A stretch of 64,000 nt of DNA from an uncultured Paracoccaceae bacterium (GTDB lineage: Bacteria > Pseudomonadota > Alphaproteobacteria > Rhodobacterales > Rhodobacteraceae). A program made the translations under genes and the position numbers. Positions 34,001 through 52,492 of this stretch are shown here, in pieces (within the stretch, counting starts at the first letter, position 1; each line of letters begins with the position of its first letter). Location of the stretch: assembly GCA_947496605.1 (NCBI GenBank), contig CANMDF010000005.1, forward strand, positions 1 through 64,000, given 5' to 3'. The notes below the pieces were generated by a model that saw nothing but the letters and a program-made list of their open reading frames with translations, made no database searches and was not told the origin of the DNA.

Positions 34001-34321
34001 GAGCATGAGAGGTCTGACGACGTGTCGCCGTCGCTGGCAACGGACGAGCAGCGTCTCAGCTATCGCGAGCAGGTCGAGAAAGAGCTTGACGATGAGCAGA
34101 TCGAGCGGTTGCGGGAAGGTGACAGCGACGCCTTGGAGAACATGTCTGACGACAGGCTAGACCGTCTCTACGCTGCGAAAGCCTATCTACAATCGGATGC
34201 AGCAACGGCGAACTCTGAAGCCTATCGCGAGGTCGTGGAAGAGATCGCCGAAGAGCAGTATGAGTTGCAACGAGACCGGCTAGTCGACTCTGAACGCGAA
34301 GGAGGGCCGGTCCATGGGTAA
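31064..34321 (+). CDS. Relaxase (VirD2/MobP-like), 1085 aa
   Basis: Conserved HPHAHIVLNRR metal-binding motif; LSNQLSYITRD; overlaps mobC; large repeated C-terminal region. Confidence 0.85.
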   Translation: MLLARNNAVEAVTGEVFREGWDRVRGSMQGLNSKKHGQLYRAARGHRSAVFKAIKNGGTHTKGQLSNQLSYITRDHKLAHFVDSRGTFDGKTKFDDKVIKKITDRFAERWDSGFRPKMGNTTHMLMSFPKGTKSEDVRDIASDVCERFFETYDGHFDYVIAVHKDRDHPHAHIVLNRRSQEGEFFYLGRDHRFNYDDFRFAMVEEAEKYSVKLEATRRVDRGLVHYPPRTREIYAVKQDAENGAMREPEQRERVGRDLARTVAEIASTRLVYHSLAAEASTDSREEISEALLKAAELLGKGTTIQHDGDIYMGAAEDFDDLRGQYAETVEEVQARIARLPEGERAANERRLNDIQVGLRRMQPLGLRSVTLEQKPSEGGIYSETNINSELVGRLQDGSTRAQIDNALRGTGIRADTVVNRIATGAPNAALERQWVADDLAKVAEAQGLNLERKDDLEAARERLNQVHVELGTALERAEVLRDDGVIEETREIRFHFDQERLDDTTRAVRQELRGQGVNEAQLDARAIEIENRAFDRVKAEQRDYLATRPEILSDPGAVYRTDEEGRGRITDRELADRLDREIDVILDRSPANQSISEAVASDFKDRYPDMPDHVARGLGDTYETSFRLNNEQELREAELEAADGETAREAALEANRNDNGIAQTEADGISSADRREFDELERQFALTDFNYPYSDDPNARDVGREQAQRASDAFRSFAARSPLHAAMASSAWDRATDIMRGPEGYLRQEKREPILERAEEWELMGRPITLEEMERAIEDDRNDDIQLEWLQNSGIERAEQEGIAAQESRNIRAMEIDQTSLDRMSSRVRDEIMAENAETESFDQRYERAEAMAASGAIEHTARARILQEREEYLSQRPELAAERVLPYSDLPFGAKIEDRERVDQISREVDRVMADRDNRGEVSTAVADDFPARYPDMPNHLARGLGRTYEVASEARDREAIRDYEETRIENEEIRRVVEHERSDDVSPSLATDEQRLSYREQVEKELDDEQIERLREGDSDALENMSDDRLDRLYAAKAYLQSDAATANSEAYREVVEEIAEEQYELQRDRLVDSEREGGPVHG

Positions 34322-36440
34322 GGGTCGCATTGCATTTGGCGTCCTCATTCTTACGCTGTTGGCACTCACCATCGGCTATGTCGTTTCTTCTGCTGTCTTG
34401 ACGTTCAAGGACTTAGGTTTTCAGGCCGATATCGACTTTTTCTATCTCGCGGAGAACTACTTATATCTTCGCCAGTACAGGCCTGAAGACTACCGGCTTG
34501 TGAACCTCATCATGGCTGGGATCGGCATTGCTGGTTTGATGATGAGCGTTGCCGTGTCCGGTTCGGCGCTGACCAAGTTCGGCCTCACGCATTGGCAGAA
34601 GAGCGGGGAGCTGGCGAAGAATGGGTTTTTTGGAAAGCCCGGAACAGGTTTCATTCTCGGTAAGCTGGCGAAGCCAAAACGCAAAGGCAAATATCTGGTT
34701 GCTAAGACCTTCCCGCACGCGCTCATTGTTGCGCCGACCGGTCGAGGCAAGACGACCGGTTTCGTCATACCCAATCTTCTAACGTGGGAAGGCTCTGCCG
34801 TTGTCCTGGATGTGAAGGGGGAGAACTTTGAGGCGACCGCACGACATCGTTGCAAACAGGGAGATAAGATCTTCCGCTTTGCGCCGACCGATTTTGAGGA
34901 TCGCAGAACGCATCGCTATAACCCTTTGCTTCGCATTTCCGAATTGAAGGACCCGGCGCAGCAACAGATGGAGCTGCAACTACTCGCAACACTGTTTCTG
35001 CAGAATGAGAACGACCGCGTTCAAGGTCTCTTGAAAGGTGGGATCGATCTATTCGTCGCCGCAGGTCTCTTGGCACTCGAGCGCAAGAAGCCCACGCTTG
35101 GAGAAATCTACCGCATCGCGGCATCTGGCGGGAACAAGCAGAAGGAATATATGGCGCGCGGCGTGGAGGTGGAGAACGAAGCTGCGAAGCTGATTTTCAC
35201 GCGGCTCGCCTCGACCAACAACGAAACGCTGACTTCCTATGTGTCGCTGTTAATGACTTCGGGCTTGGACCAATGGCAGAACCCGGCGATTGACGCTGCA
35301 ACACAGGAGTCAGACTTCGATTTCCGGAAAATTCGAAAGGAGCCATTCAGCGTCTACCTAATTGTTCAGCCTCTGATGGTCGAACCAATGGCGCCACTGA
35401 TCCGGCTGTTCTTTTCTGACCTTCTGGCGTCGATGCAGGACAAGGAACCAGGTCCGGACGAGCCTTGGCCGGTCATGATTATGCTCGATGAGTTCAACCG
35501 GCTTGGAAAAATGCCCATTGTGACGAAAAGCATCGAGACGCTGCGAGCGTATCGCGGGCATCTGGCAATCGTCACCCAAACGATCCCGGCGCTTGATGAA
35601 ATCTATGGGGAAAACACCCGACGCGCTTTACAAGGGAACGCTGGGGTAAAGCTCTACCTTACCCCATCGGATGAAAAGACGGTCGAAGAGCTGACTAAGG
35701 CTGTCGGAAAGACGACAAAAAAGGTTGTCACGCAGTCGCGGGCAATCGGCAAAATGCCTTTTGAGGGTCGCAGTCAGTCGGTGAGGACGGAGGAAGTCTC
35801 ATTGCTTCCGGAGGACGAAGCCAGGCGCTTGCCGCTTGATGAAATCGTTATGGTGATCGACGCGCAAATGCCTATCCGAGCAAAGCGTATCGAGTACTTC
35901 AACGATCCATTCTTCACGGGCATCCATGCTGCGCAAAAAGGGGATCTTCCTTTCCCTGAGAATGAGGTTTCCACTTCTATCGCCACAGCCGAAGAAGAAG
36001 TCGAGGAAGAGGATTTGACAGTCGAGGCCGGGGTTGAAACGCCTTCACCAGAGCCAACAGTAAGTCCACCGACTGACGCGGCGGCCCAGTTGCCTGCGGC
36101 GACGCCGACACCACCGCCAGCGCAAGGCAAGTTGCCAATTGAACCTGTTGATCGTCCAGCTCCGCCGCGCGAGTCTATTCAAATGGCTATGGCTACCAAA
36201 CAACGTGAGACACTGCGCACGTCTAAGAGAAAGAAGGCCAAGGGTGTGGTGGCAGTTGATGCGGATCAGCAGCGTCAAATCGAATTGAACCTAGCGATGC
36301 AAACCGAGTTGATCTTAGAAGTGCCGACTGATGCGGATGTAGCCGAGCTGCAAAAGGCCATGGGTGATCTGGAAGACTTCAGAGATAGCTTGCCTGAGGA
36401 GGCGGACGTTACGCGGGGGCTAACTGCGAAAGCTGTTTAA
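34314..36440 (+). CDS. virD4: Type IV coupling protein VirD4/TraG
   Basis: ALIVAPTGRGKTTGFVIPNLL, VMIMLDEFNRLGKMPIV. Confidence 0.92.
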   Translation: MGKGRIAFGVLILTLLALTIGYVVSSAVLTFKDLGFQADIDFFYLAENYLYLRQYRPEDYRLVNLIMAGIGIAGLMMSVAVSGSALTKFGLTHWQKSGELAKNGFFGKPGTGFILGKLAKPKRKGKYLVAKTFPHALIVAPTGRGKTTGFVIPNLLTWEGSAVVLDVKGENFEATARHRCKQGDKIFRFAPTDFEDRRTHRYNPLLRISELKDPAQQQMELQLLATLFLQNENDRVQGLLKGGIDLFVAAGLLALERKKPTLGEIYRIAASGGNKQKEYMARGVEVENEAAKLIFTRLASTNNETLTSYVSLLMTSGLDQWQNPAIDAATQESDFDFRKIRKEPFSVYLIVQPLMVEPMAPLIRLFFSDLLASMQDKEPGPDEPWPVMIMLDEFNRLGKMPIVTKSIETLRAYRGHLAIVTQTIPALDEIYGENTRRALQGNAGVKLYLTPSDEKTVEELTKAVGKTTKKVVTQSRAIGKMPFEGRSQSVRTEEVSLLPEDEARRLPLDEIVMVIDAQMPIRAKRIEYFNDPFFTGIHAAQKGDLPFPENEVSTSIATAEEEVEEEDLTVEAGVETPSPEPTVSPPTDAAAQLPAATPTPPPAQGKLPIEPVDRPAPPRESIQMAMATKQRETLRTSKRKKAKGVVAVDADQQRQIELNLAMQTELILEVPTDADVAELQKAMGDLEDFRDSLPEEADVTRGLTAKAV

Positions 36441-36457: not shown

Positions 36458-36739
36458 TCAATGCAGCGTCCGCGGAGGATGATCGAATAGGATTACGCGG
36501 AATCCTTCTGGATCGGAAGGCGGTGTAACGAGCAGGAATATTTCGTGTGATCCCTCTTTCTCATATAGGCAGCGATACTTACCCTTGTGATCGCCTTCGT
36601 CGGTAATTTCATCGTAGCGACAGGTGTAAGTAATCCCGGCGCTCTCCCATTCCGAGATACCTAATAAAGTGATCAGAGAGAGCGGTGTCCCATCGAGCAT
36701 GATGAGCTTTTGATCAACAACGATTTGTTCCATGGGCAT
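36458..36739 (-). CDS. Hypothetical protein
   Basis: Compact ORF between virD4 and virB6. Confidence 0.5.
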   Translation of the reverse strand: MPMEQIVVDQKLIMLDGTPLSLITLLGISEWESAGITYTCRYDEITDEGDHKGKYRCLYEKEGSHEIFLLVTPPSDPEGFRVILFDHPPRTLH

Positions 36740-36796: not shown

Positions 36797-37891
36797 CTAG
36801 CGCCCAATACGCTTGTTGCGGTCTATTTGCGCTTGGTAGTTTGGCGCTTGCCCTGCGTTGGGGTTGGTCGACGGCTGTGTGTTTGCGGGTTGTTGTTGCA
36901 AAGGAAGACCGTATCCTGGTCGAGTGGGCATTGGTTCCCTTCCCATCATGGCTCTTGTCTGAAGACCTGCTGCTGTAGCACCTGAGGCATTGCCCATGAG
37001 ATATGCGTTGCGAGCTTGTTGCGAACCAAAGAAACCGCGACCAAAGTCATAGCCGCCGCCGAGCCCGCCAGTCATCGCAGGCATCATTATGTTGCCTGAT
37101 ATAGCACGCACAATGAACGGCGTCGCTATGATGAAGCCCTTAGCCATGAGTACCATCATGAAAAATGGGACAAGAGCACCAATGTTTGGTGCTGCCGTAG
37201 GGTCACCAAGTTCGCCAAGTAGAGAAGTTGAGACACCTGTGATCGTTGAAAAGACACCTGCGATTATGATGGGGTATATGGCAAAAGACACAGCTGCTGT
37301 TAGCCATCTCGCGAAGTAGTCTTTTGTAACATCGAAAAGAGTAAGAAAAATCATAATAGGCGCAAGGCCAAGGAGAAGGGAGATCATGAGGCGGGACGCG
37401 ACCATAAGAAACGCAGCGAGTGCGCCCAAGAGAGAGAGCAGGAATACACCAAGGTTGGAAAGGATGGCCCCAGCCATCCAGTTCAGTTCTTCTCCTGCGG
37501 CGTTAAGGTAGTTGCCAAAATCGGCGATCATTAGGTCAAATTGTTCTGCGTAGGTGCCCGAAGGACCTGGTGTGCCGCCGCCAACGGCTGCAATCAGTGA
37601 TCCGGCGATACTGTCAATGCCGCTCAAGATGGCCGAGCTCAACAAGTTAAACTGTGTCCAGTTTTGAGCAAATATCCCTATTAAGACGATCTTCGCACCC
37701 AGCCAAAATGCTGATTTCCCGTCCATAGCTCGGTATTGGAAAACCATATTGATGCAAACGAGGATCAGAACGAAGGTCACGCCGACGGTCGTCATTGTGC
37801 CGACTGTTGCTGCCACTGCACCAAATTGCGTTTCTGCGGCGTCGTCCAGAAAGCCCTGAGACGTATCGACAAGGTACGAAACGACACTCAT
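36797..37891 (-). CDS. virB6: T4SS inner-membrane protein VirB6/TrbL
   Basis: Polytopic; position in the virB operon; Pro/Gln-rich C-terminus. Confidence 0.85.
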   Translation of the reverse strand: MSVVSYLVDTSQGFLDDAAETQFGAVAATVGTMTTVGVTFVLILVCINMVFQYRAMDGKSAFWLGAKIVLIGIFAQNWTQFNLLSSAILSGIDSIAGSLIAAVGGGTPGPSGTYAEQFDLMIADFGNYLNAAGEELNWMAGAILSNLGVFLLSLLGALAAFLMVASRLMISLLLGLAPIMIFLTLFDVTKDYFARWLTAAVSFAIYPIIIAGVFSTITGVSTSLLGELGDPTAAPNIGALVPFFMMVLMAKGFIIATPFIVRAISGNIMMPAMTGGLGGGYDFGRGFFGSQQARNAYLMGNASGATAAGLQTRAMMGREPMPTRPGYGLPLQQQPANTQPSTNPNAGQAPNYQAQIDRNKRIGR

Positions 37892-37905: not shown

Positions 37906-38307
37906 TTACCAGTTGCCGACGGCTTCACACAGCGCTTTGACGGAAATGCGCACAGCAGTGCCCTGGTCTTGGAATTCACGCCGGGTTTGCATCAATTCAA
38001 ACTCTTCGACGTGTAGATAATTGTCGTTGAATCGCTGAATGGCGTTGTCCCACGAAGGATACAGGGTTTCGCATTCACAATCTCCTGCTTCCGAAACGCG
38101 CTCATATCCTTCCAACCGGTAGATCGACTGTATCAAGAGTCGCTTGCTACTTTCGCGGACATGCAAGTTTCGCATCCATTCTGGTTCAGGCGGACGTTCC
38201 TGACAAAACTCGTAATTGCGCTCCATCGTTGGCACTAATCCCTCAGCTGATGTGAGCGACGGCGACAAGCAGACGGCAGCCGCGAGCAGTAGGCTGAATG
38301 TCTTCAT
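37906..38307 (-). CDS. Hypothetical exported protein in the virB operon
   Basis: Signal peptide; operon position. Confidence 0.6.
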   Translation of the reverse strand: MKTFSLLLAAAVCLSPSLTSAEGLVPTMERNYEFCQERPPEPEWMRNLHVRESSKRLLIQSIYRLEGYERVSEAGDCECETLYPSWDNAIQRFNDNYLHVEEFELMQTRREFQDQGTAVRISVKALCEAVGNW

Positions 38308-38528
38308 GCTCGTTTCTCCTTTTCACCTTGCATCTCTTCTTCCGAAAACTCGTATTGGAGCAACACGGTGTAGAGCCCCTGCATCCCTTGCATGTGCGTC
38401 ATCGAGATGATCTTCCAACCATTGATTGTGTACGAGGCAATTGCTTGTTCCATGTCTTCATGTTTGAATTTTTTGTCCTGAACAAATGTAAGAATTTTCG
38501 GCATGTAGCTTTTTCCATTGCTCATCAT
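38304..38528 (-). CDS. Small hypothetical protein in the virB operon
   Basis: 4-nt overlaps with both neighbours. Confidence 0.6.
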   Translation of the reverse strand: MMSNGKSYMPKILTFVQDKKFKHEDMEQAIASYTINGWKIISMTHMQGMQGLYTVLLQYEFSEEEMQGEKEKRA

Positions 38529-39511
38529 AGGGCCTCCTTTCCTAGTTCTGTGCCAGGCAAATAGAATTCGGTAATCCCACGCTTGCCGTCTTCACGGCCC
38601 GCCTGAATGATCACGTCAATTGAGCTTTCGATGTAGTCTACCATATCCCTATAAGGTATTGGGACTTCTGTCTTTAACGCTGCGATTGCTAGGCGCTGGA
38701 CTGCCAGTTGAGGCGTTTCCGCGTGTAGGGTGGTCATCGATCCGCCGTGGCCAGTGTTGATGGCCTCAAGGAACGTCATGGCCTCTTTACCGCGTACCTC
38801 ACCCAGAATGATCCTGTCAGGGCGCATCCGGAGGGTGGAAGTCAGCAAGATATCGGCCGTCTGGTGTGGCGCGTCGCGGTTTGAAATCAACGTGACCGAA
38901 TTCGGTTGCGTTGGCAGCAGCTCTGCCGCTTCTTCAATGGTCAAAATCCTTTCAAGGTCATCGACGTAAGAAAGGATTTTCCGTGCCGCCACTGTCTTCC
39001 CTGTAGACGTTCCGCCAGAGACGATCATGTTGAGCTTGTTTTCAACGCAATGACGGATGGCCGCGTCGATGTCACCGCTAGCCACGACTTGGCGAAGCTG
39101 TCGGTTCTTTTCTTGGCGCCGCTCTTCCAGCTTACGTTCTTTTCCATAGAGGAAGCCCAATTTGATTGAATCGAGGGGCAAGCTGGAAAAGAACCTCAAA
39201 CTGATCGACATGCCCCGGTTTACGGCGGGAGGTGTGATGACCTGTGCGCGGATCGGGCGGTCACGATAGCTGATTGAGACCGAGACGATGGGCTTGTCCT
39301 TGGAAAGTGGCGTTCCGGCGTCAGACGCGATCTGGTTGCCGAGGTCTTTGACTTGATCCTCTGTCAGAGTTTGTGAAAGGCGAGACATGAAATGGTCGCC
39401 TTGGAACTCTCCCCAGCAAGAGCCATCCGGGTTGATGCAGATTTCGATCACATCTTCCCGTTTGGCGTCCTCTAGCCGGTCAATTGAGGATTGAAGGTAG
39501 CTCAGCGACAT
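38525..39511 (-). CDS. virB11: T4SS ATPase VirB11
   Basis: MIVSGGTSTGKTVAARKIL; LRMRPDRIILGEVRGKEAMTFLEAINTGHGGSMTTLHAETP. Confidence 0.93.
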   Translation of the reverse strand: MSLSYLQSSIDRLEDAKREDVIEICINPDGSCWGEFQGDHFMSRLSQTLTEDQVKDLGNQIASDAGTPLSKDKPIVSVSISYRDRPIRAQVITPPAVNRGMSISLRFFSSLPLDSIKLGFLYGKERKLEERRQEKNRQLRQVVASGDIDAAIRHCVENKLNMIVSGGTSTGKTVAARKILSYVDDLERILTIEEAAELLPTQPNSVTLISNRDAPHQTADILLTSTLRMRPDRIILGEVRGKEAMTFLEAINTGHGGSMTTLHAETPQLAVQRLAIAALKTEVPIPYRDMVDYIESSIDVIIQAGREDGKRGITEFYLPGTELGKEAL

Positions 39512-39515
39512 AGGA

Positions 39516-40910
39516 TCAGAAAATCTCCAAGTCACGATCAACCATGACTGTGATGCGCGCTCCTTGGTCGACGTAGATCACAGGTTTGATTGAAAGGTAT
39601 TCACCGATGATACTGCCTGTTGCGTCGGCGAGGTCGTCGCCAACGTCTTCCAGCACATCTTCGGCAAGTTCATCTTCGGTTTGGTTTGCGGCAACGGTTG
39701 GGGCGGCGGATATCAGAGAGATTAGCGCTGCGGAGCCGAAGCGCTCGGTAAAGCGTGTGTCAACGAAACCAGTTGTTCCAGAGCGTCCAAGTTCATCGGC
39801 TCCAAAGGAGCTGATCTGAACGGATTGATTGGTCGGTAGGATGATGCGGTCCCAAGCAACGGTTACACGGCTTTGAGCAATCTCCGCACCAGAACGATAA
39901 CGACCAATGAGCCGTGATCCAGCTGGGATGAGGAGGCGTGACCCGTCATAGCTGTAGACGTTCTCAGATGTGATCGCTCTTACTTGGCCCGCAAGTTCGC
40001 TAGAAATAGCGGTTTCCAAAGCTGCCTGAATGACGGTGCCCTGAATGACCGTATTTGAGGGATTTGCGATAACTTCGGATTGGGTCACTTGAGATGGGAG
40101 GGCACCGTTGAGAACGAAGTCAGTGACATCTCCGAATGTACGTTCTGCCAGTTCGATCCCTGGACCGCCATTTGTTGCTCCGCCAAAGGCGATTGTTGGT
40201 GATTGTATGCGGGCTTCCTGGAAAGCGCGTTCTTCGTCCGCGCGGCGCTGTAATTCGGCCAAACGCCGGGCCTCTTCTTCGCGGCGCAGTCGCTCTTGTT
40301 CCCGCAAACGCAGTTCGTCTTCGGTTGGGCCAACAGGCGCAGGGGCGGGGGCATTTGCTTCCAATCGCGCTAGATCGAGGTCCATGCGGAGCTCCTGAAG
40401 CTCACGATCGCGCTCCGCCATTTCTGCGGCAAACTGTTCCTGTGCCGCTTCCGAAGCAGCCTGCAACTCTGCCAGTTGTGCGGTCAGCGCATTCATTGCG
40501 TCTGCAGCTGATGTGTCCTCTTCAACAACAGGTTCAGAGGCATTTTGTATCGCCTCAATCTGAGCTTGAAGTGCTGCGATCTGAGCAAGGAGTTCGGCAT
40601 TGGGCTCAGGATTGGTAGCTGGGACCTCTACGATTTCAGGTTCGGGTGGGGCAGGGGGCACGAATGGCTCAATTGCTCCGAAGCCATCGCCCTCTGGTTG
40701 GAATTCGTCAGGTGTCGCGGTCGGCAACACGACTTCTTCCTCGGGCTGGTTCAACATGTAGAAGAATGCACCCGCCATTCCGATCAAAGCGACAAAGAGA
40801 ATAGCAATCACAGGCGAGCGGCGTTGCGATGCAATTGGCGCGCCCGCAGCACCGGCTTCGAGACGCGCAAGACGTTGGTTTACTTCTGCTTGGTTCGGAT
40901 CATCGCTCAT
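39516..40910 (-). CDS. virB10: T4SS protein VirB10
   Basis: IPAGSRLIGRYRSGAEIAQSRVTVAWDRIILP; N-terminal TM; Pro/Glu-rich periplasmic linker. Confidence 0.92.
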   Translation of the reverse strand: MSDDPNQAEVNQRLARLEAGAAGAPIASQRRSPVIAILFVALIGMAGAFFYMLNQPEEEVVLPTATPDEFQPEGDGFGAIEPFVPPAPPEPEIVEVPATNPEPNAELLAQIAALQAQIEAIQNASEPVVEEDTSAADAMNALTAQLAELQAASEAAQEQFAAEMAERDRELQELRMDLDLARLEANAPAPAPVGPTEDELRLREQERLRREEEARRLAELQRRADEERAFQEARIQSPTIAFGGATNGGPGIELAERTFGDVTDFVLNGALPSQVTQSEVIANPSNTVIQGTVIQAALETAISSELAGQVRAITSENVYSYDGSRLLIPAGSRLIGRYRSGAEIAQSRVTVAWDRIILPTNQSVQISSFGADELGRSGTTGFVDTRFTERFGSAALISLISAAPTVAANQTEDELAEDVLEDVGDDLADATGSIIGEYLSIKPVIYVDQGARITVMVDRDLEIF

Positions 40911-41599
40911 GATGTGCCCCCCGTTGCATTTGCTTGAATGCAGACCACAGTTTCGCCAAGGCGCAACACCCATTGAGAGTTCACGCCAGATACGCGGATC
41001 ACGCGAGGATCTGTTTGTTGGGAATTGACGGTGCGTTCGCGGCCGTTTGAGTAACGGAAGATTGCTGGGACAGGAGCTTTCCGAGCGAATTGGAAGTATG
41101 TGAACGTGCCGTCATCCCAGATACGCGTTGGTGTTATCTCTGATCGTGAGCTGGCGCCGTAGTTGTAGTTCGGTGCCTGCGCAGCGACGGCATTCTGAGG
41201 TCGTCTTTGTTCATCAGGATAGCGGAACTGGACCACATAGAAGGTGGGTGAGGACACTTCTTTCACGTTGAAATAGTAACTGCGGCGGTTGGTGTAGACG
41301 GTCACATTGGTGTGGACGCCGCGCGCGACCGGCTTAATCGCGAACGCCTGCCCGCCAGGCACGCCATCAAGTTCAAATCCCTCGGTGTCACCGGATAGGA
41401 TCGAGCGGATAGTTTCACCGTCTCCAAATTCAACAGTGGTCACATGCGTGAGCGAGACATTCAGGCGGAAAACCTGGCCGTCTTGATAGGTGGCAATTCG
41501 CACTCGTGCGTCGTTGGGGCCGCGGCGCGGCGTGGCTTCAGCAAGAGCTGTCGATGCGGCGAACATCAATGCCAGCAGGGCTATTCCGAGACTGCGCAT
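40907..41599 (-). CDS. virB9: T4SS protein VirB9
   Basis: RIWDDGTFTYFQFARKAPVPAIFRYSNGRERTVN. Confidence 0.92.
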   Translation of the reverse strand: MRSLGIALLALMFAASTALAEATPRRGPNDARVRIATYQDGQVFRLNVSLTHVTTVEFGDGETIRSILSGDTEGFELDGVPGGQAFAIKPVARGVHTNVTVYTNRRSYYFNVKEVSSPTFYVVQFRYPDEQRRPQNAVAAQAPNYNYGASSRSEITPTRIWDDGTFTYFQFARKAPVPAIFRYSNGRERTVNSQQTDPRVIRVSGVNSQWVLRLGETVVCIQANATGGTS

Positions 41600-41600
41600 A

Positions 41601-42254
41601 TCAGTTCTCCAATCTGTCTGAACGGATCGAGTATTCGATCACTGTGAAGCCAAAGGGGTTCGTCCAAACCTGATCAATCGTACGGGCTTCTTCGGGCCGG
41701 AACTCGAAAAGCATGGTCGCAGTGAACATGCCAGCTTGGACGCCTTGAATGGAGGTGAGCCGCTTGCGCAACCGGACAGTCGCGCGGTTCTCGCCAATCA
41801 AGTTTACGCTGAGAATTTCGACATCCAGCGTAGAGTTGCTGCCGTAGACGGTTGGCGGATACTGGGCGTTCGCGCTGTTCCATTGGGCGCGCACAGAGGC
41901 TTCGGCGCGGCCATCTGAACGTTGCAAAACACTGTTGATCCGGACGTCGTTGTCCAGCTGATTGTAGACCTCACGATCAGTTACATAGCGGAAGATTTCA
42001 GCTTCGATCACTGCCTGATTGCCAGTGACCGCGCTTGCGCCAACAGAGACTTCAGGCAACGCAAACCCCGTTTCGGGATCGTAGGGCACGACCACCGGGG
42101 GTGGGTCCACATCGAGAATGGCGACAGCGACGGCACCCAGGCATCCGAGAAGACCAAAGGTTAGTCCGGCTAGCCCGAGCTTCTGCCAGAGGCGTTCACG
42201 GCGCAGCGCACCGTAGACCAGCTCTTCCTCAATGATCTCTTTCTCGTTGTCCAA
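41601..42254 (-). CDS. virB8: T4SS protein VirB8
   Basis: N-terminal TM, VPYDPETGFA, C-terminal FRPEEARTIDQVWTNPFGFTVIEYSIRSD. Confidence 0.88.
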   Translation of the reverse strand: MDNEKEIIEEELVYGALRRERLWQKLGLAGLTFGLLGCLGAVAVAILDVDPPPVVVPYDPETGFALPEVSVGASAVTGNQAVIEAEIFRYVTDREVYNQLDNDVRINSVLQRSDGRAEASVRAQWNSANAQYPPTVYGSNSTLDVEILSVNLIGENRATVRLRKRLTSIQGVQAGMFTATMLFEFRPEEARTIDQVWTNPFGFTVIEYSIRSDRLEN

Positions 42255-42272: not shown

Positions 42273-43118
42273 TTAATCGCCGAGGTCTGGAATGGTAAAT
42301 TCCATGAAGTTTTGCTCTTCAGCGATGGTGGCTGCATCGATGACACCACCGGTGCCGTCGCCTACGGTTTGAACGGCTTCGAGCTGCCACATCGCGACGA
42401 GTGCAATGGCCAGTTCAGCCGTTACACGCGTATTCAGGTCGACGCTTTCTTTGAGTTCGTCCATGTCATCAATCAGGCCAACAAGGCGGTCGACGCGCTC
42501 AAGCGATTGGCCCGCATCCTCGTAGCTGTTCTGCGCTGCAGACGAGACGAGGGCGCCGGTGGTCGCTTGCGTTGCGATACGTTCAGCTCCAGCGTTACCG
42601 CTCGTTGCCATTTCGTTGAGCGTGTCTTCATCAAAACCGAGGTCTGCAAGAACGCGACCCATCTGGGTTTGGATTTGGCCTGCGCCGGAACCGCTGAGGC
42701 CTGAAAAGTCACCAGTTCGAATTGCCTGGATCGTCGCTTGAATATCACCAAACTCTTGATCGAGAATGCCGTTCAACTCGGCTTCCATCTCGGTCGCGAT
42801 CACTTCTGGGAGTTCAGCCAGTCGAGTAAGAGCAGCATAGGTTTCTTGGAGCTGGGCCAATTGATCCGTGAGTGTGGAGAGTTGTTCTCGAAGCTGTACG
42901 AGCTGCTCGTTTTGCAGCAGTTCATCTTCGATCATCTGGCGAAGTTGCTGGATATTTTGGGCAATGTTCTGCGTATCGACGACGGGCACACCTTGCGCAA
43001 AAGCAGGGGTAGTGATCATGGTTGTGGGTGCAGCCAGGCCGAAAGATAGAAGGGCGGTTAAGGCGAATGTCCGAACGGTGTTGCGGACGTAGGTGATGTG
43101 AAGCGTTAAGGCGCGCAT
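42273..43118 (-). CDS. virB5: T4SS minor pilin VirB5/TrbJ-like
   Basis: Signal peptide then AQGVPVVD; coiled-coil Gln-rich; operon position. Confidence 0.8.
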   Translation of the reverse strand: MRALTLHITYVRNTVRTFALTALLSFGLAAPTTMITTPAFAQGVPVVDTQNIAQNIQQLRQMIEDELLQNEQLVQLREQLSTLTDQLAQLQETYAALTRLAELPEVIATEMEAELNGILDQEFGDIQATIQAIRTGDFSGLSGSGAGQIQTQMGRVLADLGFDEDTLNEMATSGNAGAERIATQATTGALVSSAAQNSYEDAGQSLERVDRLVGLIDDMDELKESVDLNTRVTAELAIALVAMWQLEAVQTVGDGTGGVIDAATIAEEQNFMEFTIPDLGD

Positions 43119-44278
43119 TAGTCTAGGTCCTCTATGGTGAAGTTCATGAATTCTTGTTCTTGCATCCGAGCTGCCGCGAGACGCAGTTGTTCAGCGCTTA
43201 AGGGTTGGGTCCGAGCGGCTTGCAATCTTGTCCTTGCTGCTATGAGACGGACCAGTTCGGCTCTGGCGTAGGTGTTCAACGCCATGGACTCCTGCACATC
43301 GGCGGTGGAGCCAATGCGGGTCACAATATCCCGCACGCGAAGGGCGGCTTGACGGATCGCAGTAGGGGAATTGCTGCCATAGAAGGCTGCACCCGTGCCC
43401 ATCATCGACAGGTTCGAGTTCGCCAGTAGGGCAGGGTCGATCGTGCCGAGCGCTTCGATCCCGCCGATCCGCGCCAAATACTCGTTGTATTTCTGCGGAA
43501 TGACGGTGACGTAGTGCTGTGTTTCTTTGAAAGGAGGCACACCGCTATATTCGATCACGCGACCCGGACCTGCATTGTAGGCAGCCAGCGCAAAGATGAT
43601 GTTGCCATCAAACCGGTTGAGCTGTTGTGCTAAATAACGTGCGCCGCCCTCTACTTGTAGATACGGGCTGGTTCGGTATGCGGGATTGATGCCGAGATCC
43701 CCAGCGGTTCCGGGCATGATCTGTGTCAGACCATAGGCACCGACAGGGCTCTCTGCGCGGATCACGAACCGGCTTTCTTGCCAAATCAGAGCTTGGATCA
43801 ACGCTCGCCATTGGACCACTGAAAGACCAGCTGCCGAGACGCCAAGGCGACTATGGGTTTCTTGCGCCACGCGTATGATGAGCTGTTCGATGTTCTCCGC
43901 CGCATCGCCAAACATCTGATCACCAGCGGGATTAGGGTCGACATCGGCGGTCCCATAGACCGCTTCCACTGATCTGTTGGAATCTCCACTGCCATCTTCG
44001 AGGCCAGTGACCATTCCTGAAATCGCAACGCCGCCCGCTTCAAAACTCGTTTGTGCGTCCAGAATGGCGTCCAGAATTGAAAGCTGTTCGCGCTCAATCT
44101 CGGATATGGCCTCTTCAACCGCGAGTGTGTCACCCTGGACGGCCAGATCGGCTTCCCGATCCGCTGTTTCGATGATGTCGCGCGCTGTCAGCCCAGAGTC
44201 GACAACCGGCACGCCCTGGGCAAACGCGCTGGTCGAGACGCTGAGCATCAACAGTGTTGCGACGGTGAGCTTACTCAT
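43118..44278 (-). CDS. VirB5-like/lytic transglycosylase chimera (SLT domain)
   Basis: SLT motifs WQESRFVIRAESPVGAYGLTQIMPGTAGDLG...ALAAYNAGPGRV; shares AFAQGVPVVD N-terminus and FMNFTIEDLD C-terminus with adjacent VirB5. Confidence 0.82.
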   Translation of the reverse strand: MSKLTVATLLMLSVSTSAFAQGVPVVDSGLTARDIIETADREADLAVQGDTLAVEEAISEIEREQLSILDAILDAQTSFEAGGVAISGMVTGLEDGSGDSNRSVEAVYGTADVDPNPAGDQMFGDAAENIEQLIIRVAQETHSRLGVSAAGLSVVQWRALIQALIWQESRFVIRAESPVGAYGLTQIMPGTAGDLGINPAYRTSPYLQVEGGARYLAQQLNRFDGNIIFALAAYNAGPGRVIEYSGVPPFKETQHYVTVIPQKYNEYLARIGGIEALGTIDPALLANSNLSMMGTGAAFYGSNSPTAIRQAALRVRDIVTRIGSTADVQESMALNTYARAELVRLIAARTRLQAARTQPLSAEQLRLAAARMQEQEFMNFTIEDLD

Positions 44279-44447
44279 TGGCAATGTCCTCCAAATCGAG
44301 CAGATCATCACCGCCAAGTGCTTCGAAATTGCAGTCCATTAGTGCAGGGCCGCGCGACACGAAGCTAAAGCAGTTTGCTTGTGGCTCTTGGTATTCGGCA
44401 CAACCCGCGATCAGGCAAAACAGCAGGAAACAGGGTAGTTTTCGCAT
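44271..44447 (-). CDS. virB7: VirB7-like lipoprotein (58 aa, MRKLPCFLLFCLIAGCAEYQEPQANCFSFVSRGPALMDCNFEALGGDDLLDLEDIANE)
   Basis: Hand-translated; lipobox LIAGC; overlaps virB4 stop and the next gene's start; missing from the ORF track. Confidence 0.75.
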   Translation of the reverse strand: MRKLPCFLLFCLIAGCAEYQEPQANCFSFVSRGPALMDCNFEALGGDDLLDLEDIANE

Positions 44448-46822
44448 TATTGGAGCCTCCAGAAGTCAGGCCGATCCCGATAATCGGAGCCGACGAGTTT
44501 TTCACCTGCTTCCATCCCGCCAAGGATGGTCAGGTTGTCGCCAAGAGCGCTAAGGTCTGCGTCTATAACGACTGAGCCTTGGTCATCTCGAATGAGTGCC
44601 AAGCGTGAGTTCGTGCCTGTGTTGAGAAGCGTATCCAGCTCTTTTCCGTAGAGATTGAGCATCTGATAGTCCGAGGCATTGGCACGAATGTTCGGGAGAA
44701 GAACCTGCGTCGGCACGGCCTCAACGATGGTTTTGCCTGTACGCGTCCGTTCGAGCTGGCTCGCATACTGCGTCATCATTACGGCCACGGTGTTCTGTTT
44801 TCGAGCTGTGACCAGCCATTGTGACAAGCGTTCAGCAAAATACTCGTTGTCGAGCGCCTTCCATGCTTCATCAATGATGATGATTGTGGGGCGGCGGTCT
44901 TCGATCTTTCGCTCAATCCGGCGAAACAAATAGCTGAGAACAGCCATTCGTTCCTTGTCGCTTTCGCTGTCGAGGATCCCGGTCAAGTCGAAGCCAACTA
45001 AATCCCCATCCAGCGAGAAAGTATCTTCAAGACTATGGCCGAAAATCCAGCCGAACCGGCCTTTCTCTGCCCATTCAAGAACGCGCTGGTTGAGATCGCC
45101 ATCGTCGTCCATCGACATGAAGAGTGATGCGAAGTTCTGCCAGTCCCGGAGGTTTGGATCAGTGGCTTGCGCGTTCTGGCGAACACATTCCACGATCCTG
45201 TTGGTCTGAGCCGGTGTGAGCGGCTTGTCCTCGCGGTAGAGCAGGGAGCCGAACCAGTCGGAGAGCCATGCGATCCCGCGCTTGTCCACTTCCGTCCAGA
45301 GAGGGTTAAGCCCTGTGGGCATCCCGCCCTGGATCGTTGTGTAGCTGCCCCCGTTGGCTCGCACAGCCATTTCCATACCTTGTCGATAGTCGAAGACGAA
45401 GACACGCGCACCAGCACGCACTGCCTGCGTCATGAGAAACGCTGCAAAGACCGATTTACCGGAGCCGGGACGGCCCATGATCAACGTGTGACCACTGGTG
45501 GGCTCTTTTTCAGGTGATCCGGCCTCATGAAAAGAGAAGCGATAAGCGCTTTTTTCAGGGGTCGGGAACATCGAGATAATGCTTCCCCACGGGACTTCCT
45601 GCGCTTGCTTTCCAAGCTGTGTCCGATGAAACGGCGCAAAATCCGCAAAGTTGACGTTCGTCACGGTGCTGGCGCGCAACCTCTTGGGTTGATTGCCGGG
45701 ATGTTGACTGAAGTAGTGTGTATTTGCGCCCAAGCTATCACTGATCATTGTCACCCCCTCGGACGCGGCAGCGTTGACGATTTCAGCGCCGAGAGCTTCG
45801 AGGCCTTCGAGGGTGTCGGAGAATACGGTGACGACCATGTGGTGATCACCCATGCTTGCTCGCTTCGAGGCCAAATCGTCAGCAAGAAACGGGAGTTGTT
45901 CTCGCGCTGAGATTTCTGCGTCATCTGTGGCCTGTCGTCGCTTGGCCTCGCGTTTGATCCTCGCAATCGTCAAGTTTGTGTTCACTGGTGTGAATGAGTG
46001 CGTGACAATCATATCGACGGGCAGGTTCAAGCCATCGAACATCGTGCAGGAGGTGTTCTGTGGATAGTCTTTAACGCTGTAGCTTTTGCCGTAGCGTTTG
46101 CCAGCAACGCCCTCAGAAAGTTCAAAGTAGTCGCCGAAGAAGGTTGCCCGCGTATTTGCAACAGAAGACGACATAAAACCGAATTTTGACGTGTGGTAGA
46201 GTGGCAGTTCTTGCCCGGTGTTCAACGCGCCGAGAAACCCGACCAACTCACCCTTTTCAGCGGAAAGAAGGGTTGGCTTCAGTTCAGCTAGCCCGGACAT
46301 AAAGATGCCGACGGCTTGGTTAAGGCGGCTGACCCTTTTAGCGGTTTCCTCGCGCAGCGTTTCAGGGGACGGCTTGCGCATGTATCGCATGAACGTCTTT
46401 GGAGGAGGGCGGTGGATTACCGTCAACGTTAACGTTTTGTCACGCAATCCGCTTTTCTCCATTTTAGTCCGCCAGAGGGCGTCAACCTCTGCTGCAAAAG
46501 TGCGTCCTTCGATGGGTTCTAGGTCCACCTTGATCGACTTGGAAACCTTGTGAACATAGTAACTGAACTCTTGGCCAAGCTGTGCAATCAGGCGGGCGAA
46601 TAGGGCACGTGTGTTGTCGAGATAGTCGTCATCGGTTGTGTAGCTGTTCACCCCGGTAATGCGGATGCATTGGAACAGCTCGTTGACGCGCGTGCGCACC
46701 GTATGGTCATCAACGAGACTGACATACGGCAACATGTGCGCCAGTTGCCTTTCGTGCTGGAACCACTGTGGCATCAGCGTCCGTTCATCCAAATCATCAC
46801 GGGGCATAACTGTCTCCGCCAT
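44447..46822 (-). CDS. virB4: T4SS ATPase VirB4
   Basis: GHTLIMGRPGSGKSVFAAFLM; PTIIIIDEAWKALDN. Confidence 0.93.
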   Translation of the reverse strand: MAETVMPRDDLDERTLMPQWFQHERQLAHMLPYVSLVDDHTVRTRVNELFQCIRITGVNSYTTDDDYLDNTRALFARLIAQLGQEFSYYVHKVSKSIKVDLEPIEGRTFAAEVDALWRTKMEKSGLRDKTLTLTVIHRPPPKTFMRYMRKPSPETLREETAKRVSRLNQAVGIFMSGLAELKPTLLSAEKGELVGFLGALNTGQELPLYHTSKFGFMSSSVANTRATFFGDYFELSEGVAGKRYGKSYSVKDYPQNTSCTMFDGLNLPVDMIVTHSFTPVNTNLTIARIKREAKRRQATDDAEISAREQLPFLADDLASKRASMGDHHMVVTVFSDTLEGLEALGAEIVNAAASEGVTMISDSLGANTHYFSQHPGNQPKRLRASTVTNVNFADFAPFHRTQLGKQAQEVPWGSIISMFPTPEKSAYRFSFHEAGSPEKEPTSGHTLIMGRPGSGKSVFAAFLMTQAVRAGARVFVFDYRQGMEMAVRANGGSYTTIQGGMPTGLNPLWTEVDKRGIAWLSDWFGSLLYREDKPLTPAQTNRIVECVRQNAQATDPNLRDWQNFASLFMSMDDDGDLNQRVLEWAEKGRFGWIFGHSLEDTFSLDGDLVGFDLTGILDSESDKERMAVLSYLFRRIERKIEDRRPTIIIIDEAWKALDNEYFAERLSQWLVTARKQNTVAVMMTQYASQLERTRTGKTIVEAVPTQVLLPNIRANASDYQMLNLYGKELDTLLNTGTNSRLALIRDDQGSVVIDADLSALGDNLTILGGMEAGEKLVGSDYRDRPDFWRLQ

Positions 46823-47075
46823 GGATTTTTCTATTTCTCGTGCGAGGGGTTTCCTGAAGGACCGCCATGAGGACATCTATGAAACGGGGATCCCAATCGG
46901 CTGCTTTCCACAGAACCGGATACAGAGCTGCGCCGATGCCAAGCACCGCAAAGCTCTGTACCCAGATAAACAATAGGGCCGTGCCGAACATCCAGACTAC
47001 CGCGTACATGATTGGCAGCCCAAACAGCGTTGATGGTCGAACTAGACCTTGGAACAGAGTTGATTTCTCAGCCAC
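46797..47075 (-). CDS. virB3: T4SS protein VirB3 (GTG start proposed)
   Basis: KSTLFQGLVRPSTLFGLPIMYAVVWMFGTALLFIW. Confidence 0.8.
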   Translation of the reverse strand: MAEKSTLFQGLVRPSTLFGLPIMYAVVWMFGTALLFIWVQSFAVLGIGAALYPVLWKAADWDPRFIDVLMAVLQETPRTRNRKIHGGDSYAP

Positions 47076-47085
47076 GTTTGCGCCC

Positions 47086-47373
47086 TTATGCCCCGAAAAC
47101 CGTCGCAACGATTGTAGGTGCTGCGGCAATGCCCATTAGTCCGGCCAACACCCAGATAGCTTGCCGAAGATCAATGATGTTGAACCACCAGCTTGCGAAC
47201 ACCCCCATCAAAGCGAGTGTTCCGAGGACGACTCCAAGCGGGCCAGTCATCGCGTCCACGATGCCTTGAAAGAAGCTGACAAAAGGCGAAAGGTCGACCG
47301 ACTGAGCCATGGCTGGTTCGGCGATAACGACAAAGACTGTCATTGCGGTGAGTAATAGTTGAATTGGCCTCAT
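47086..47373 (-). CDS. virB2: T4SS major pilin VirB2
   Basis: Signal peptide, two hydrophobic helices; between virB3 and virB1. Confidence 0.85.
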   Translation of the reverse strand: MRPIQLLLTAMTVFVVIAEPAMAQSVDLSPFVSFFQGIVDAMTGPLGVVLGTLALMGVFASWWFNIIDLRQAIWVLAGLMGIAAAPTIVATVFGA

Positions 47374-48070
47374 GAGTTTTCTCCTTCAAGCCTGTTGAAC
47401 ACGGCCAGCACCCGCTGAACGTGGTTTTGCGTTTCACGGTAAGGTGGGATGCCCCTGTACTGCCTGACGGCATCGGGGCCAGCGTTGTAAGCAGCCAAAG
47501 CAAACCGCGCGTCACGGAAGGTCGCCAATTGGGCGGCCAGATAACGTGCGGAGCCGTCAAGATTTGCCCGCCAATCATAAGGGTCGACGCCAAGGTCATC
47601 GGCAGTTCCCGGCATGAGTTGACCAAGGCCAATCGCGCCAACATGCGAGCGTGCATTTGGGTTGTAGGCGCTTTCGACTTCAATGTTGGAGCGGAACAGC
47701 AGCCGCCATTCCGTTACCGTGAGACCGGCTGCGCGCAAACCTTGGTGGCTCGCATATCGCAAGGCGGTCTCATCTATCGCGGCAAGAATGTGAGGGCGGG
47801 GAACGGCAACGCGTGGCGCAACAGCAGCTACACGGAATGACCCGTCGCTTGGTTCTTCAGTTGCGTTGGTGTCGGATGTGGCATTGGCCCCAAAAATGGC
47901 AAGGGGGGCGTCCGAATTTCCTTGGCCGATACCGTCGTTGTAAGTTCGCGCAAATCTCTCTTGGGATTGCGAGGCTGAGAGCGAGCCATCGCTTTCCATC
48001 GTGAAGACCATTTGTGCGGATGCACCATTGGCTGCAAAAAGGAAAGCTAGGAGGCTAGTCTTCCTTAGAA
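47370..48070 (-). CDS. virB1: Lytic transglycosylase VirB1-like (start uncertain)
   Basis: VESAYNPNARSHVGAIGLGQLMPGTADDLGVDP...ALAAYNAGPDAVRQYRGIPPYRETQNHV. Confidence 0.82.
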
Positions 48071-48417
48071 ATGTCTTCCGACTGAGACAGTGTAAAGGTC
48101 CAGCGCTGACCTTCGTAGACAGGGAATGCGATGACGGAGAAGCCGAGGTCGATAAGGAACGAGACCAATCCGGTGACTGTTTTGAATGTCCTGATCTGGA
48201 TGTAATCACCGGCGTTTCTGGCGCGGGCGGTGACGAGTTGTTTTTCGACACCCTCGTCGTTGACAGCACGAAGAACCCAGACCCCATGCCACACCGAATT
48301 CTTCCGGTAAGCATCAACCTTGCATACAACTTCGACGTGATATCCAGATTCAATAAGGTCTTTGAATCCTGCTTCTGTAACCACATTCGGCGCTTCTTTT
48401 GCTAAATCCATCGCCAT
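48055..48417 (-). CDS. Hypothetical protein, first gene of the virB operon (start proposed at MAMDLAKE)
   Basis: Operon position; overlaps the virB1 5' end. Confidence 0.55.
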   Translation of the reverse strand: MAMDLAKEAPNVVTEAGFKDLIESGYHVEVVCKVDAYRKNSVWHGVWVLRAVNDEGVEKQLVTARARNAGDYIQIRTFKTVTGLVSFLIDLGFSVIAFPVYEGQRWTFTLSQSEDISKED

Positions 48418-49403: not shown

Positions 49404-50597
49404 TTAGCCAACTTTATTGCCTTGGCTCCAGACGCCGCGGAGAAGAGGTGTTTCGCCGATTTGGCGCACACGCAGAACATCACCGCGCAATCCTGTTTTC
49501 AAAGCACCACGGTCATGCAACCGCACGGCACTCGCAGGGTTGATGGTCACGGTAGCAATAGCGCGGGGAAGATCATTCCAAATATCTGCAAGGCGGAAGG
49601 CCGACAATAGCAGCGCTGAGGGCACGTAGTCTGACGAGACAATGTCGAGAAGATCGGCTTTTGCGAGGGCCTCTGCCGCAACATTGCCGGAGTGAGATCC
49701 GCCGCGGATCAGGTTGGGTGCGCCCATCATCACGGCAATTCCGTGCACGCGGCAGGCGGCTGCGGCTTCAACCGTTGTGGGAAACTCGGCAAACCCCACG
49801 CCGTTCACCGCTGAGGTTCCAACATGATCGGCCGTGGTATCATCATGGCTGGCCAGAACTGCACCCAGACGGCGGGCTTCTTTCACTGCACCCACCTCGT
49901 GCTTTGCCCCGAGGCGTTTTTGCAGACCCAACAGGGTCTCAACATGTTCGGCAAACTCTGCGTCGTTCATCCCGCGCTTCTTTGCGACGTATGTTTTCAG
50001 CGCGGTCAGATCGCGAAACTGGCGCTGGCCCGGGGTGTGATCCATCAGGCTGACGATGCCGACCCTGTCTGACGATCCGAACGCCGCCAGTTCCTCAAGC
50101 AGCGTCTCTGAACAGATTTCGGCCCGTAGATGGAGGAAATGACTGATCTTGAAATACCCTTGTGCGCGCGCTGCCAAGAGTTCATCCGCCAGCTTTCGGG
50201 CGTAGTCAATGTAGCGTCCTTTGCCGCTATGGATGGACCCCACCCGCATGGCGTCAAACACCGTCGTGATGCCAGTGGACGCCAGCTCAGCATCGTGCGC
50301 GATCAGGGCGGGCAAATGTGGCCAGTCCACCTCTGGGCGCGGTTCGATATGGCGTTCGACATTGTCTGTATGCAGTTCGACAAGACCGGGAATAACGAGA
50401 TCACCGGCACAATCCAGGGCACCGGTTGGGACATGATCCCCTTCAGTAATGTCACAAATGACGCCTTGTTCGATTGTCACCGCACCAGTGAGTATCTGAT
50501 CCTCCAACACAAGCTGCGCATTGGCGAGACATAGGTCGCTTGACACATCGTTGTCACAAGCCTTTGTCAAAGAGGACGTGGGAAAAGGGGAATTCAT
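49404..50597 (-). CDS. phnM: Alpha-D-ribose 1-methylphosphonate 5-triphosphate diphosphatase PhnM
   Basis: VIPGLVELHTDNVERHIEPRP, SLMDHTPGQRQF. Confidence 0.93.
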   Translation of the reverse strand: MNSPFPTSSLTKACDNDVSSDLCLANAQLVLEDQILTGAVTIEQGVICDITEGDHVPTGALDCAGDLVIPGLVELHTDNVERHIEPRPEVDWPHLPALIAHDAELASTGITTVFDAMRVGSIHSGKGRYIDYARKLADELLAARAQGYFKISHFLHLRAEICSETLLEELAAFGSSDRVGIVSLMDHTPGQRQFRDLTALKTYVAKKRGMNDAEFAEHVETLLGLQKRLGAKHEVGAVKEARRLGAVLASHDDTTADHVGTSAVNGVGFAEFPTTVEAAAACRVHGIAVMMGAPNLIRGGSHSGNVAAEALAKADLLDIVSSDYVPSALLLSAFRLADIWNDLPRAIATVTINPASAVRLHDRGALKTGLRGDVLRVRQIGETPLLRGVWSQGNKVG

Positions 50598-51267
50598 GTC
50601 ATACTCTCGATTTGCAATTTACTTTGTGCCGCCGGTAGGGCCCTTGGCCGATTTCGGCGCATCTTGGCTCGGTTGGGATGTTTTGCATGGCTGTGAGGCA
50701 TCCCAGCCCAATATGCCGGGTCTGGATGACATCACGATGACACCGCGCAAATACGGGTTTCATGCGACTTTGAAACCGCCATTTCGTCTGGCAGAAGGGC
50801 AAAATGTGCCGGCTCTGGAAGCTGCCGCATCTGACCTTGCTGTCAGCCTCGCGCCGGCCATATGTGACGGCTTGGAATTGACGACTTTGGGCGGTTTTCT
50901 GGCGCTGACCCCGCAAGACGATATGCAAGCAGTGCGCCGGGTTGCTGGGGCCTGTGTGCGAGAGCTTGATCAATTTCGCGCCCCGGCTTCCCAAGCAGAA
51001 CTCGCGCGCCGTCGCAAAGCCGGTCTGAGCCCGCCGCAAGAGGCGCTGTTGGCGCAATGGGGCTATCCTTACGTGATGGAGGAATTTCGGTTCCACATGA
51101 CCCTGACGGCGCGGCTGCAGCAGGATGACATCGCCGTATGGTCGGCTGCTGTGCGGCGTCATTTGCCGGACCTGCCTAGCCTTTTTGTGTTGGATCAGAT
51201 CGCTTTGTGCGGTGAGCGGGAAGATGGCCGGTTCGAGGTGATCCATCGCTACAAACTCACCGGCTGA
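50596..51267 (+). CDS. DUF1045 phosphonate-cluster protein
   Basis: RFAIYFVPPVGPLADFGASWLGWD...PRKYGFHATLKPPFRL; inside the phn cluster. Confidence 0.88.
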   Translation: MSYSRFAIYFVPPVGPLADFGASWLGWDVLHGCEASQPNMPGLDDITMTPRKYGFHATLKPPFRLAEGQNVPALEAAASDLAVSLAPAICDGLELTTLGGFLALTPQDDMQAVRRVAGACVRELDQFRAPASQAELARRRKAGLSPPQEALLAQWGYPYVMEEFRFHMTLTARLQQDDIAVWSAAVRRHLPDLPSLFVLDQIALCGEREDGRFEVIHRYKLTG

Positions 51268-51809
51268 AGCAGCGCCGCGCCCCGGGCGATGGTCTGAGAC
51301 AGCGGACCATCGTTTGCGAGGTTGATCACCTTGAGCCCAGCCGGCAAGGGCTTGTCAGCCTGGGCAAGGCGTTTGCTGATCTCTTTTTCCGTCTCACGGG
51401 CCCGCGCGGCCAGACGGTGCGCAAGTGTTTCGGGTTTCGCGGTGATGTTGAGAACGACGAAGCGTGGGAAAATCTCGGCCGCTTGGGCCAGAGCCTTGCG
51501 GGAGAAATTGACAAGGCAATCGGTGCCCTTGCCAAGTTGGTATTTGACGGTGATCGGAATGCCGTAGTGCAGGCCATGCGCGCCCCAATACACTGCAAAC
51601 GCCCCATCCTGCACCATAGCTTCAAATCGTGGTACAGACACCGCATCGTAGTCCTCGCCGCCCAAGTCGGGCGCACGTGTGATGACGCGGCGCACCAGGT
51701 GCAAATCGGGTATTGCGTCGTGTAGGCCCGCCATCACGCTGTCTTTGCCAACACCCGATGGGCCGACAACCGCGATGAGGCGTCCCCCGGACTTTGAGGC
51801 AAGCGTCAT
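51249..51809 (-). CDS. phnN: Ribose 1,5-bisphosphate phosphokinase PhnN
   Basis: LIAVVGPSGVGKDSVMAGL, RRVITRAPDLGGEDYDAV. Confidence 0.92.
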   Translation of the reverse strand: MTLASKSGGRLIAVVGPSGVGKDSVMAGLHDAIPDLHLVRRVITRAPDLGGEDYDAVSVPRFEAMVQDGAFAVYWGAHGLHYGIPITVKYQLGKGTDCLVNFSRKALAQAAEIFPRFVVLNITAKPETLAHRLAARARETEKEISKRLAQADKPLPAGLKVINLANDGPLSQTIARGAALLQPVSL

Positions 51810-52489
51810 GCAGCAATTCCGGGGGTAAAGCGGCCGACATCAATTTCGCGATCACAGACGCGGGTACGGGCTGCCTCATCATGGAAAATACCGATAATGG
51901 CCGCGCCGCGCGCTTTGGCGTCCTCGATCAAGGAGAGCACCACCTCGCGGTTCGCAGCGTCTAGGCTCGCGGTGGGTTCATCAAGTAACATCGCAGGGTA
52001 GCTGTGGGCAAAACCACGTGCAATATTGACTCGCTGTTGCTCGCCGCCTGAGAAGGTCGTGGGAGACAAGGACCACAGCCTTTCGGGGATGTTTAATTGG
52101 GTCAGAAGCGCCGATGCGCGGTCCTGCGCTTCGTCTGCCGGTACTCCTAAAGCGCGCAGAGGCTCAGCAACCACATCGAGCGTTGGCACGCGCGGCACCA
52201 CACGCAGAAACTGGCTAACATAGCCTAGCACATCACGGCGCAATTTGATGATGTCGCGCGGCTCAGACCGCACGATGTCCAAACCGCCAATGCGAATTTC
52301 ACCTGCCTGCGTCAGGTAATTGCCGTAGATCATCCGCATTAGCGTGGATTTACCAGCACCAGAGGCCCCAGTGAGCGCGACGCATTCGCCAGGGGCAACC
52401 GCGAAGGACACATCGCTGATCACCTCGATCACGGCACTTCCCTGATTGTGCAGGGTAAAGGTTTTGGAGACGTCTTTGAGTTCAATCAT
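51806..52489 (-). CDS. phnL: C-P lyase ABC-like protein PhnL
   Basis: ALTGASGAGKSTLMRMIYGNYL; FSGGEQQRVNIARGF. Confidence 0.93.
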   Translation of the reverse strand: MIELKDVSKTFTLHNQGSAVIEVISDVSFAVAPGECVALTGASGAGKSTLMRMIYGNYLTQAGEIRIGGLDIVRSEPRDIIKLRRDVLGYVSQFLRVVPRVPTLDVVAEPLRALGVPADEAQDRASALLTQLNIPERLWSLSPTTFSGGEQQRVNIARGFAHSYPAMLLDEPTASLDAANREVVLSLIEDAKARGAAIIGIFHDEAARTRVCDREIDVGRFTPGIAA

Positions 52490-52492
52490 GGC

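Follow-up and report, generated by a model that had tools for sequence, protein, structure and literature searches.

A putative VirB5 paralogue with a predicted peptidoglycan-cutting domain in T4SS operons of alphaproteobacterial plasmids

The DNA analysed here (the window) is a stretch of 64,000 nucleotides, positions 1 to 64,000 of contig CANMDF010000005.1 from an uncultured Paracoccaceae bacterium, and it carries a T4SS. The minus-strand genes run in the order virB1, virB2, virB3, virB4, lipoprotein, chimera, virB5, virB8, virB9, virB10, virB11, small orf and virB6, whilst the plus strand has virD4 (the VirD4 coupling protein, 34314..36440, PF02534 E 9e-90) and a relaxase-type gene. On the minus strand, Pfam recognises a separate VirB1 lytic transglycosylase (47370..48110, SLT E 1.2e-15, its upstream start uncertain), the VirB4 ATPase (44447..46876, PF03135 E 1e-23), a canonical VirB5 of 281 aa (42273..43118, PF07996 E 3e-18), VirB8 (41601..42254, PF04335 E 9.5e-45), the VirB11 ATPase (38525..39541, PF00437 E 8e-30) and VirB6, the expected docking base of VirB5 (36797..37891, PF04610 E 6e-30). 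This VirB5 also gives profile matches to TrwJ of R388 (E 3.6e-7) and to TraC. The minus-strand ORFs of the VirB2 pilin (47086..47373) and VirB3 (46797..47129) are named by their position in the operon, VirB2 and VirB3 being annotated at the equivalent slots of homologous operons, and VirB9 (40907..41599) and VirB10 (39516..40973), also on the minus strand, are named by position from the gene order annotated in such operons.

Right after virB4 comes a gene for a small lipoprotein of 58 aa with the lipobox LIAGC (44271..44447, minus strand), which overlaps the VirB4 stop by 1 base and the chimera start by 8 bases, and which is VirB7-like by size and position only. Its mature part has three Cys; unlike a virB7 between virB6 and virB8, its gene precedes virB5, and a small orf is annotated at its slot in most related operons.

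The gene of interest (43118..44278, minus strand, start ATG at 44278) encodes a VirB5-SLT chimera of 386 aa, whose translation begins with MSKLTVATLLMLSVSTSAFA and continues with QGVPVVD. A signal peptide (residues 1-20) is followed by a VirB5-like N region (about 21-80), an SLT domain (157-255, Pfam PF01464 E 2e-22) with Glu168, within QESRF, as the predicted catalytic residue, and a VirB5-like C region (about 299-386) terminating in the tail FMNFTIEDLD; the protein is predicted to be secreted, with export to the periplasm. Its stop codon and the start of virB5 share 1 base (TAATG), an overlap found in 63 of 70 loci. Databases label such genes ‘lytic transglycosylase domain-containing protein’ and nothing more.

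The first-pass annotation had read this gene as a duplicated VirB5 with an SLT domain inserted in its middle, in an operon that keeps both a canonical VirB5 and a VirB1 gene elsewhere. Both companions are indeed there, and the shared stretches that it quoted are exact: AFAQGVPVVD in both proteins, FMNFTIEDLD versus FMEFTIPDLGD, and ALNTYARAEL versus DLNTRVTAEL. By BLASTP, the C end of the chimera is identical to VirB5 at 28 of 76 positions (37%) without gaps (E 4e-7), and the N-terminal match reaches E 4e-5. When an alignment of 25 chimeras is compared by hhalign with one of 22 VirB5s, the whole families match at P 99.0% (E 9e-18); with signal peptides removed, the N flank alone still matches VirB5 over 58 columns free of gaps (P 97%, E 1.5e-11) and the C flank alone over 88-105 such columns (P 98.6-99.1%, E 1e-15 to 1e-17), whilst reversed-VirB5 decoys stay below P 1% in the same flank comparison. 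The similarity is thus not limited to the signal peptide or to generic motifs. G2, P4, D7, D24, Q28 and L49 (mature numbering) are invariant at matching positions in all 25 chimeras and 22 VirB5s, and both alignments share the motif LN(T/S)xxxxAE.

The Pfam family PF07996 is detected in 12 of the 25 chimeras (best E 9e-8); the window chimera on its own falls below its cut-off. A match to the C end of the profile (about 117-194) exceeds the gathering score in four loci (L041, L045, L046, L048), and one to the N end (1-47) does so in the Sulfitobacter pontiacus protein P0012 (L110), each of these proteins also having SLT. L045, a contig binned as Verrucomicrobia, has a chimera operon typical of the Rhodobacterales type and is probably a plasmid contig placed in the wrong bin. 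A complete VirB5 domain, middle included, is absent from the chimeras: PF07996 matches only profile 1-47 and about 117-194, with SLT between, so that some 70 middle positions of VirB5 (about 48-117) have been replaced. The SLT domain does lie in the middle of a VirB5-like protein, as first described, but as a replacement and not as a plain insertion. The TraC fold consists of three bundled helices and a globular appendage (PMC2653234), and, judged by position, the replaced part probably includes this appendage. Structure prediction with AlphaFold gives a good SLT domain for the chimera (25 sequences), with the long flank helices H8-56 and H285-364 at pLDDT 35-66, and is likewise poor for the VirB5 control (22 sequences, pLDDT 43). 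Foldseek finds only lytic transglycosylases with the chimera model, by way of its SLT domain, and nothing significant with the VirB5 model. As the models of the VirB5-like parts are poor, the VirB5 homology rests on sequence profiles, by which the chimera is a member of the VirB5 family, i.e., a paralogue with an SLT domain as its middle.

The chimera shares with the VirB5/TrwJ/TraC family (PF07996, TIGR02791) the mature QGVP..D start, a long first helix, the LNTxxxAE C-terminal helix, the predicted secretion and the position in the virB operon after virB4; it differs from it in having SLT for profile positions about 48-117 and in keeping a canonical VirB5 alongside. With VirB1 (PF01464) it shares an SLT domain in which every motif is present and which has 46% identity to the SLT of the VirB1 in its own operon, but this domain is framed by VirB5-type ends, and a stand-alone virB1 is separately encoded in the same operons. 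All 77 of 77 Rhodobacterales-type chimeras have kept the active-site motifs QES(R/A)F, G(L/F)xQxMPxTA and AYNAGP. In two trees the chimera SLTs are monophyletic (support 96/92 and 95/97), four loci labelled ‘other’ inside the chimera clade of the first tree (L006, L030, L096, L097) being chimera loci. Their sisterhood with the VirB1s of the same operons is supported in the first tree (96/94) and loses resolution in the second, where rhizobial sequences were added.

The proposal of a survey over Rhodobacteraceae was taken up, and it finds full-length relatives in about 42 of 198 sampled genera (E <1e-50). There are 44 full-length chimera loci in genome contigs, Martelella (Hyphomicrobiales) among them, and 275 plasmid records with a chimera at at least 80% coverage. 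A local oddity or an assembly artefact is ruled out by these hundreds of independent records. The order is constant, with virB4, a small orf (where annotated), the chimera, virB5, and then virB8 or virB6, and a separate virB1 lies upstream, preceding virB2, in every locus long enough to cover the region. When plasmids are ranked by VirB4 similarity, those with at least 41% identity have the chimera in all cases examined, and identity next falls to 30%, a pattern that fits fixation in one T4SS lineage. No full-length chimera was found outside Alphaproteobacteria among 398 Pseudomonadota genomes (E 1e-42). The chimera-bearing DNA-transfer plasmids are a family in marine and soil alphaproteobacteria.

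Related arrangements are seen in two more lineages. In Sinorhizobium medicae pMl1, whose VirB4 is 29% identical, an SLT protein again lies between virB4 and virB5 with its own virB1 beside it, and starts with SQVPVLD versus AQVPVID in VirB5. This rhizobial type (L119:9662-10750 and relatives) occurs in 99 plasmid records at at least 80% coverage, bringing the plasmid genes of both types to roughly 370, and the catalytic Glu is kept in 6 of 6 of its proteins. It has a conserved Cys stretch, VTCSxYRPGR, ahead of SLT and a Cys pair near the C end. For the SLT parts of the Rhodobacterales and rhizobial types, a single origin is compatible with the second tree's AU test (p 0.49). The N flank of the rhizobial type matches VirB5 at P 82%; its C flank gives no match to VirB5 in direct profile comparison (P 0.1%). 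Plasmids of Methylocystis and some of Rhizobium have, between virB4 and virB5, a gene with a VirB5-like start and no SLT (L118:10366-11016; L125:2474-3169; L126:2435-3103; L127:2453-3199; L128:4480-5154; 36 plasmid records, annotated ‘hypothetical protein’). It is with this SLT-less paralogue that the rhizobial SLT type matches in its C flank (P 95%), and the C end of the paralogue matches the rhizobial VirB5 at P 97% (E 1e-10), so that the link between the rhizobial SLT type and VirB5 is an indirect one. Within an operon, the SLT-less paralogue and VirB5 have similar ends (LTFDASKATLIG versus WTFDATKATLVG is an example), and in the Rhizobium operon L128 the stretch MTYDSGKVSFV is identical in both. 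Operons of Bradyrhizobium, Rhizobium esperanzae and Sphingobium, three in all, have virB5 directly after virB4 with no gene in the slot, and their VirB5 has no aromatic tail, three being too few for a rule.

A new finding is that, within operons, the C-terminal tail of the chimera varies together with that of VirB5. When 19 clusters (chimeras <80% identical) are compared over the final 22 columns of the alignment, chimera tails are far more similar to the VirB5 tails of their own operon than to those of others (centred mean 13.5, null sd 2.0, p <= 5e-5, in a permutation that takes related clusters as independent). The helix preceding the tail has no such within-operon matching (p 0.2, 19 clusters), and co-variation at the N-terminus is weak (p 0.04). 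When five deep clades (chimera identity 38-52%) are represented by one operon apiece, no other of the 120 possible arrangements scores as well as the matched one (p 0.008, i.e., 1/120), a descriptive test since clades and anchor were picked after the tails were seen. For the five SLT-less pairs alone the tail test is not significant (p 0.09), though the tails look alike. Shared ancestry alone does not yield this pattern, because the tail of each paralogue would drift independently; joint selection by one partner would yield it, and so would gene conversion restricted to the tail. The first of these leads us to infer that chimera and VirB5 may dock on one common partner; the second, a conversion between neighbouring genes, could produce the same co-variation.

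What such docking would mean can be framed by what is reported for VirB5 and for wall-cutting enzymes elsewhere. A VirB5 pentamer sits on a VirB6 pentamer, and VirB5 is found at the pilus tip (PMC9259494), the mature N-terminal Gln of VirB5/TrwJ forming the needle tip of the stalk (PMC11294453). In Agrobacterium, VirB1* binds VirB5 (PMC2653234), and in the flagellum FlgJ is a rod cap and a muramidase in one (PMC8517470). Because of these facts, the chimera may be expected to dock at the site of VirB5 and to bring a wall cutter to the tip of the stalk or pilus. The reading that we lean towards, with some reserve, is of a VirB5 paralogue with an SLT-replaced middle that is exported, docks through its VirB5-like ends on the partner of VirB5 and cuts the wall at the growing tip. 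After export to the periplasm, these ends would recruit it to VirB6 at the base of the stalk, to the VirB5 ring itself or to some other stalk component; its peptidoglycan-cutting domain would be held at the growing stalk or pilus tip, and the wall would be opened precisely where stalk and pilus pass. The freely secreted VirB1 would then have a different task, earlier or wider. Since the VirB5-like parts are short, the full set of contacts of the VirB5 pentamer may be lost, and since SLT is joined where the first long helix ends, away from the N-terminal needle tip, it perhaps lies laterally on the stalk.

The action of the chimera would be comparable to that of FlgJ in the flagellar rod, and by this analogy it may be a tip- or stalk-associated muramidase. 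Both would combine, in one chain, the cap or tip of a growing envelope-crossing filament with a wall-cutting domain. However, machine and sequence are unrelated, the muramidase of FlgJ is C-terminal and of another glycoside hydrolase family, and FlgJ is the sole cap (PMC8517470), whereas the chimera coexists with a plain VirB5.

The sequence evidence for docking fits equally well an enzyme of assembly only, which would use its VirB5-like ends to dock during the building of the envelope-spanning channel, open the donor wall and leave without ever being part of the pilus tip. We hold this possible, if on the unlikely side: VirB1-type enzymes are known to work in the periplasm of the donor whilst the machine is assembled (review PMC12857230), and the FlgJ cap too is ejected after use (PMC8517470), but with a separate VirB1 beside the chimera the donor wall is already served by an enzyme of its own, and a transient factor would not need to retain the N-terminal needle-tip motif. 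A place in the tip would follow if a few chimera subunits entered the VirB5 ring by way of the shared tail, giving a mixed tip of VirB5 and VirB5-muramidase, a built-in wall cutter of the pilus that possibly hits the recipient wall as well; such a T4SS counterpart of the FlgJ drill, with the pair co-evolving, we put forward as a rather doubtful speculation.

It seems improbable to us that the chimera simply duplicates the task of VirB1, as an ordinary lytic transglycosylase of the periplasm with VirB5 ends acquired for secretion and stability and with no docking on the stalk. Every SLT motif is intact and the domain stands close to the VirB1 of the operon, as this would predict, but the C-terminal tail tracks VirB5 over deep clades, adjacency to virB5 is kept together with the stop/start overlap in those 63 of 70 loci, and no complete locus has lost either gene, where free redundancy predicts otherwise. 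Least credible of all is a non-enzymatic adhesin whose SLT domain binds the recipient wall without cutting it, for although inactive VirB1 homologues are proposed as adhesins in Gram-positive systems (PMC12857230) and VirB5 is reportedly duplicated for surface recognition elsewhere, as Bartonella TrwJ (PMC3406051), a pure binder should lose the Glu and other SLT motifs that the Rhodobacterales-type chimeras all keep, together with the Glu of the rhizobial type.

The Trw system of Bartonella has TrwJ (VirB5) paralogues within one T4SS, just like chimera and VirB5 here, although its duplicates have no enzyme domain and a role in erythrocyte recognition. No earlier description of a VirB5-SLT fusion or of a pilus-tip hydrolase was found in the open-access literature, including a 2025 T4SS review, a scope outside which subscription papers mostly fall; a paper on D. 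shibae lists the gene merely as ‘lytic glycosylase’ (PMC9426580). We rate the case as a known machine, the T4SS, with a putative and so far unrecognised VirB5-muramidase subunit.

VirB1 is often dispensable. If the chimera is indeed a muramidase docked in the manner of VirB5, it bears on how the stalk and pilus of a T4SS pass the peptidoglycan and on the contacts of VirB5, and suggests that the needle of conjugation may be equipped with a wall cutter. A VirB5-anchored muramidase would make this passage testable, as enzyme, docking end and partner can be mutated separately, and the tail co-variation offers direct access to a contact of VirB5 that is still to be mapped. Plasmids of this kind (p191/p126) are known to conjugate from Dinoroseobacter shibae into Phaeobacter inhibens, which provides a laboratory model (PMC4886583).

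Some smaller features of the window may be added. A predicted secreted protein of 133 aa is encoded between virB11 and virB6 (37906-38307, minus strand) and one of 93 aa after virB6 (36458-36739, minus strand), both without a Pfam match. The region adjoining the T4SS (49404-54111) has phosphonate (C-P lyase)-like genes which, their translations judged by eye, are PhnM-, PhnN-, PhnL-, PhnK- and PhnJ-like.
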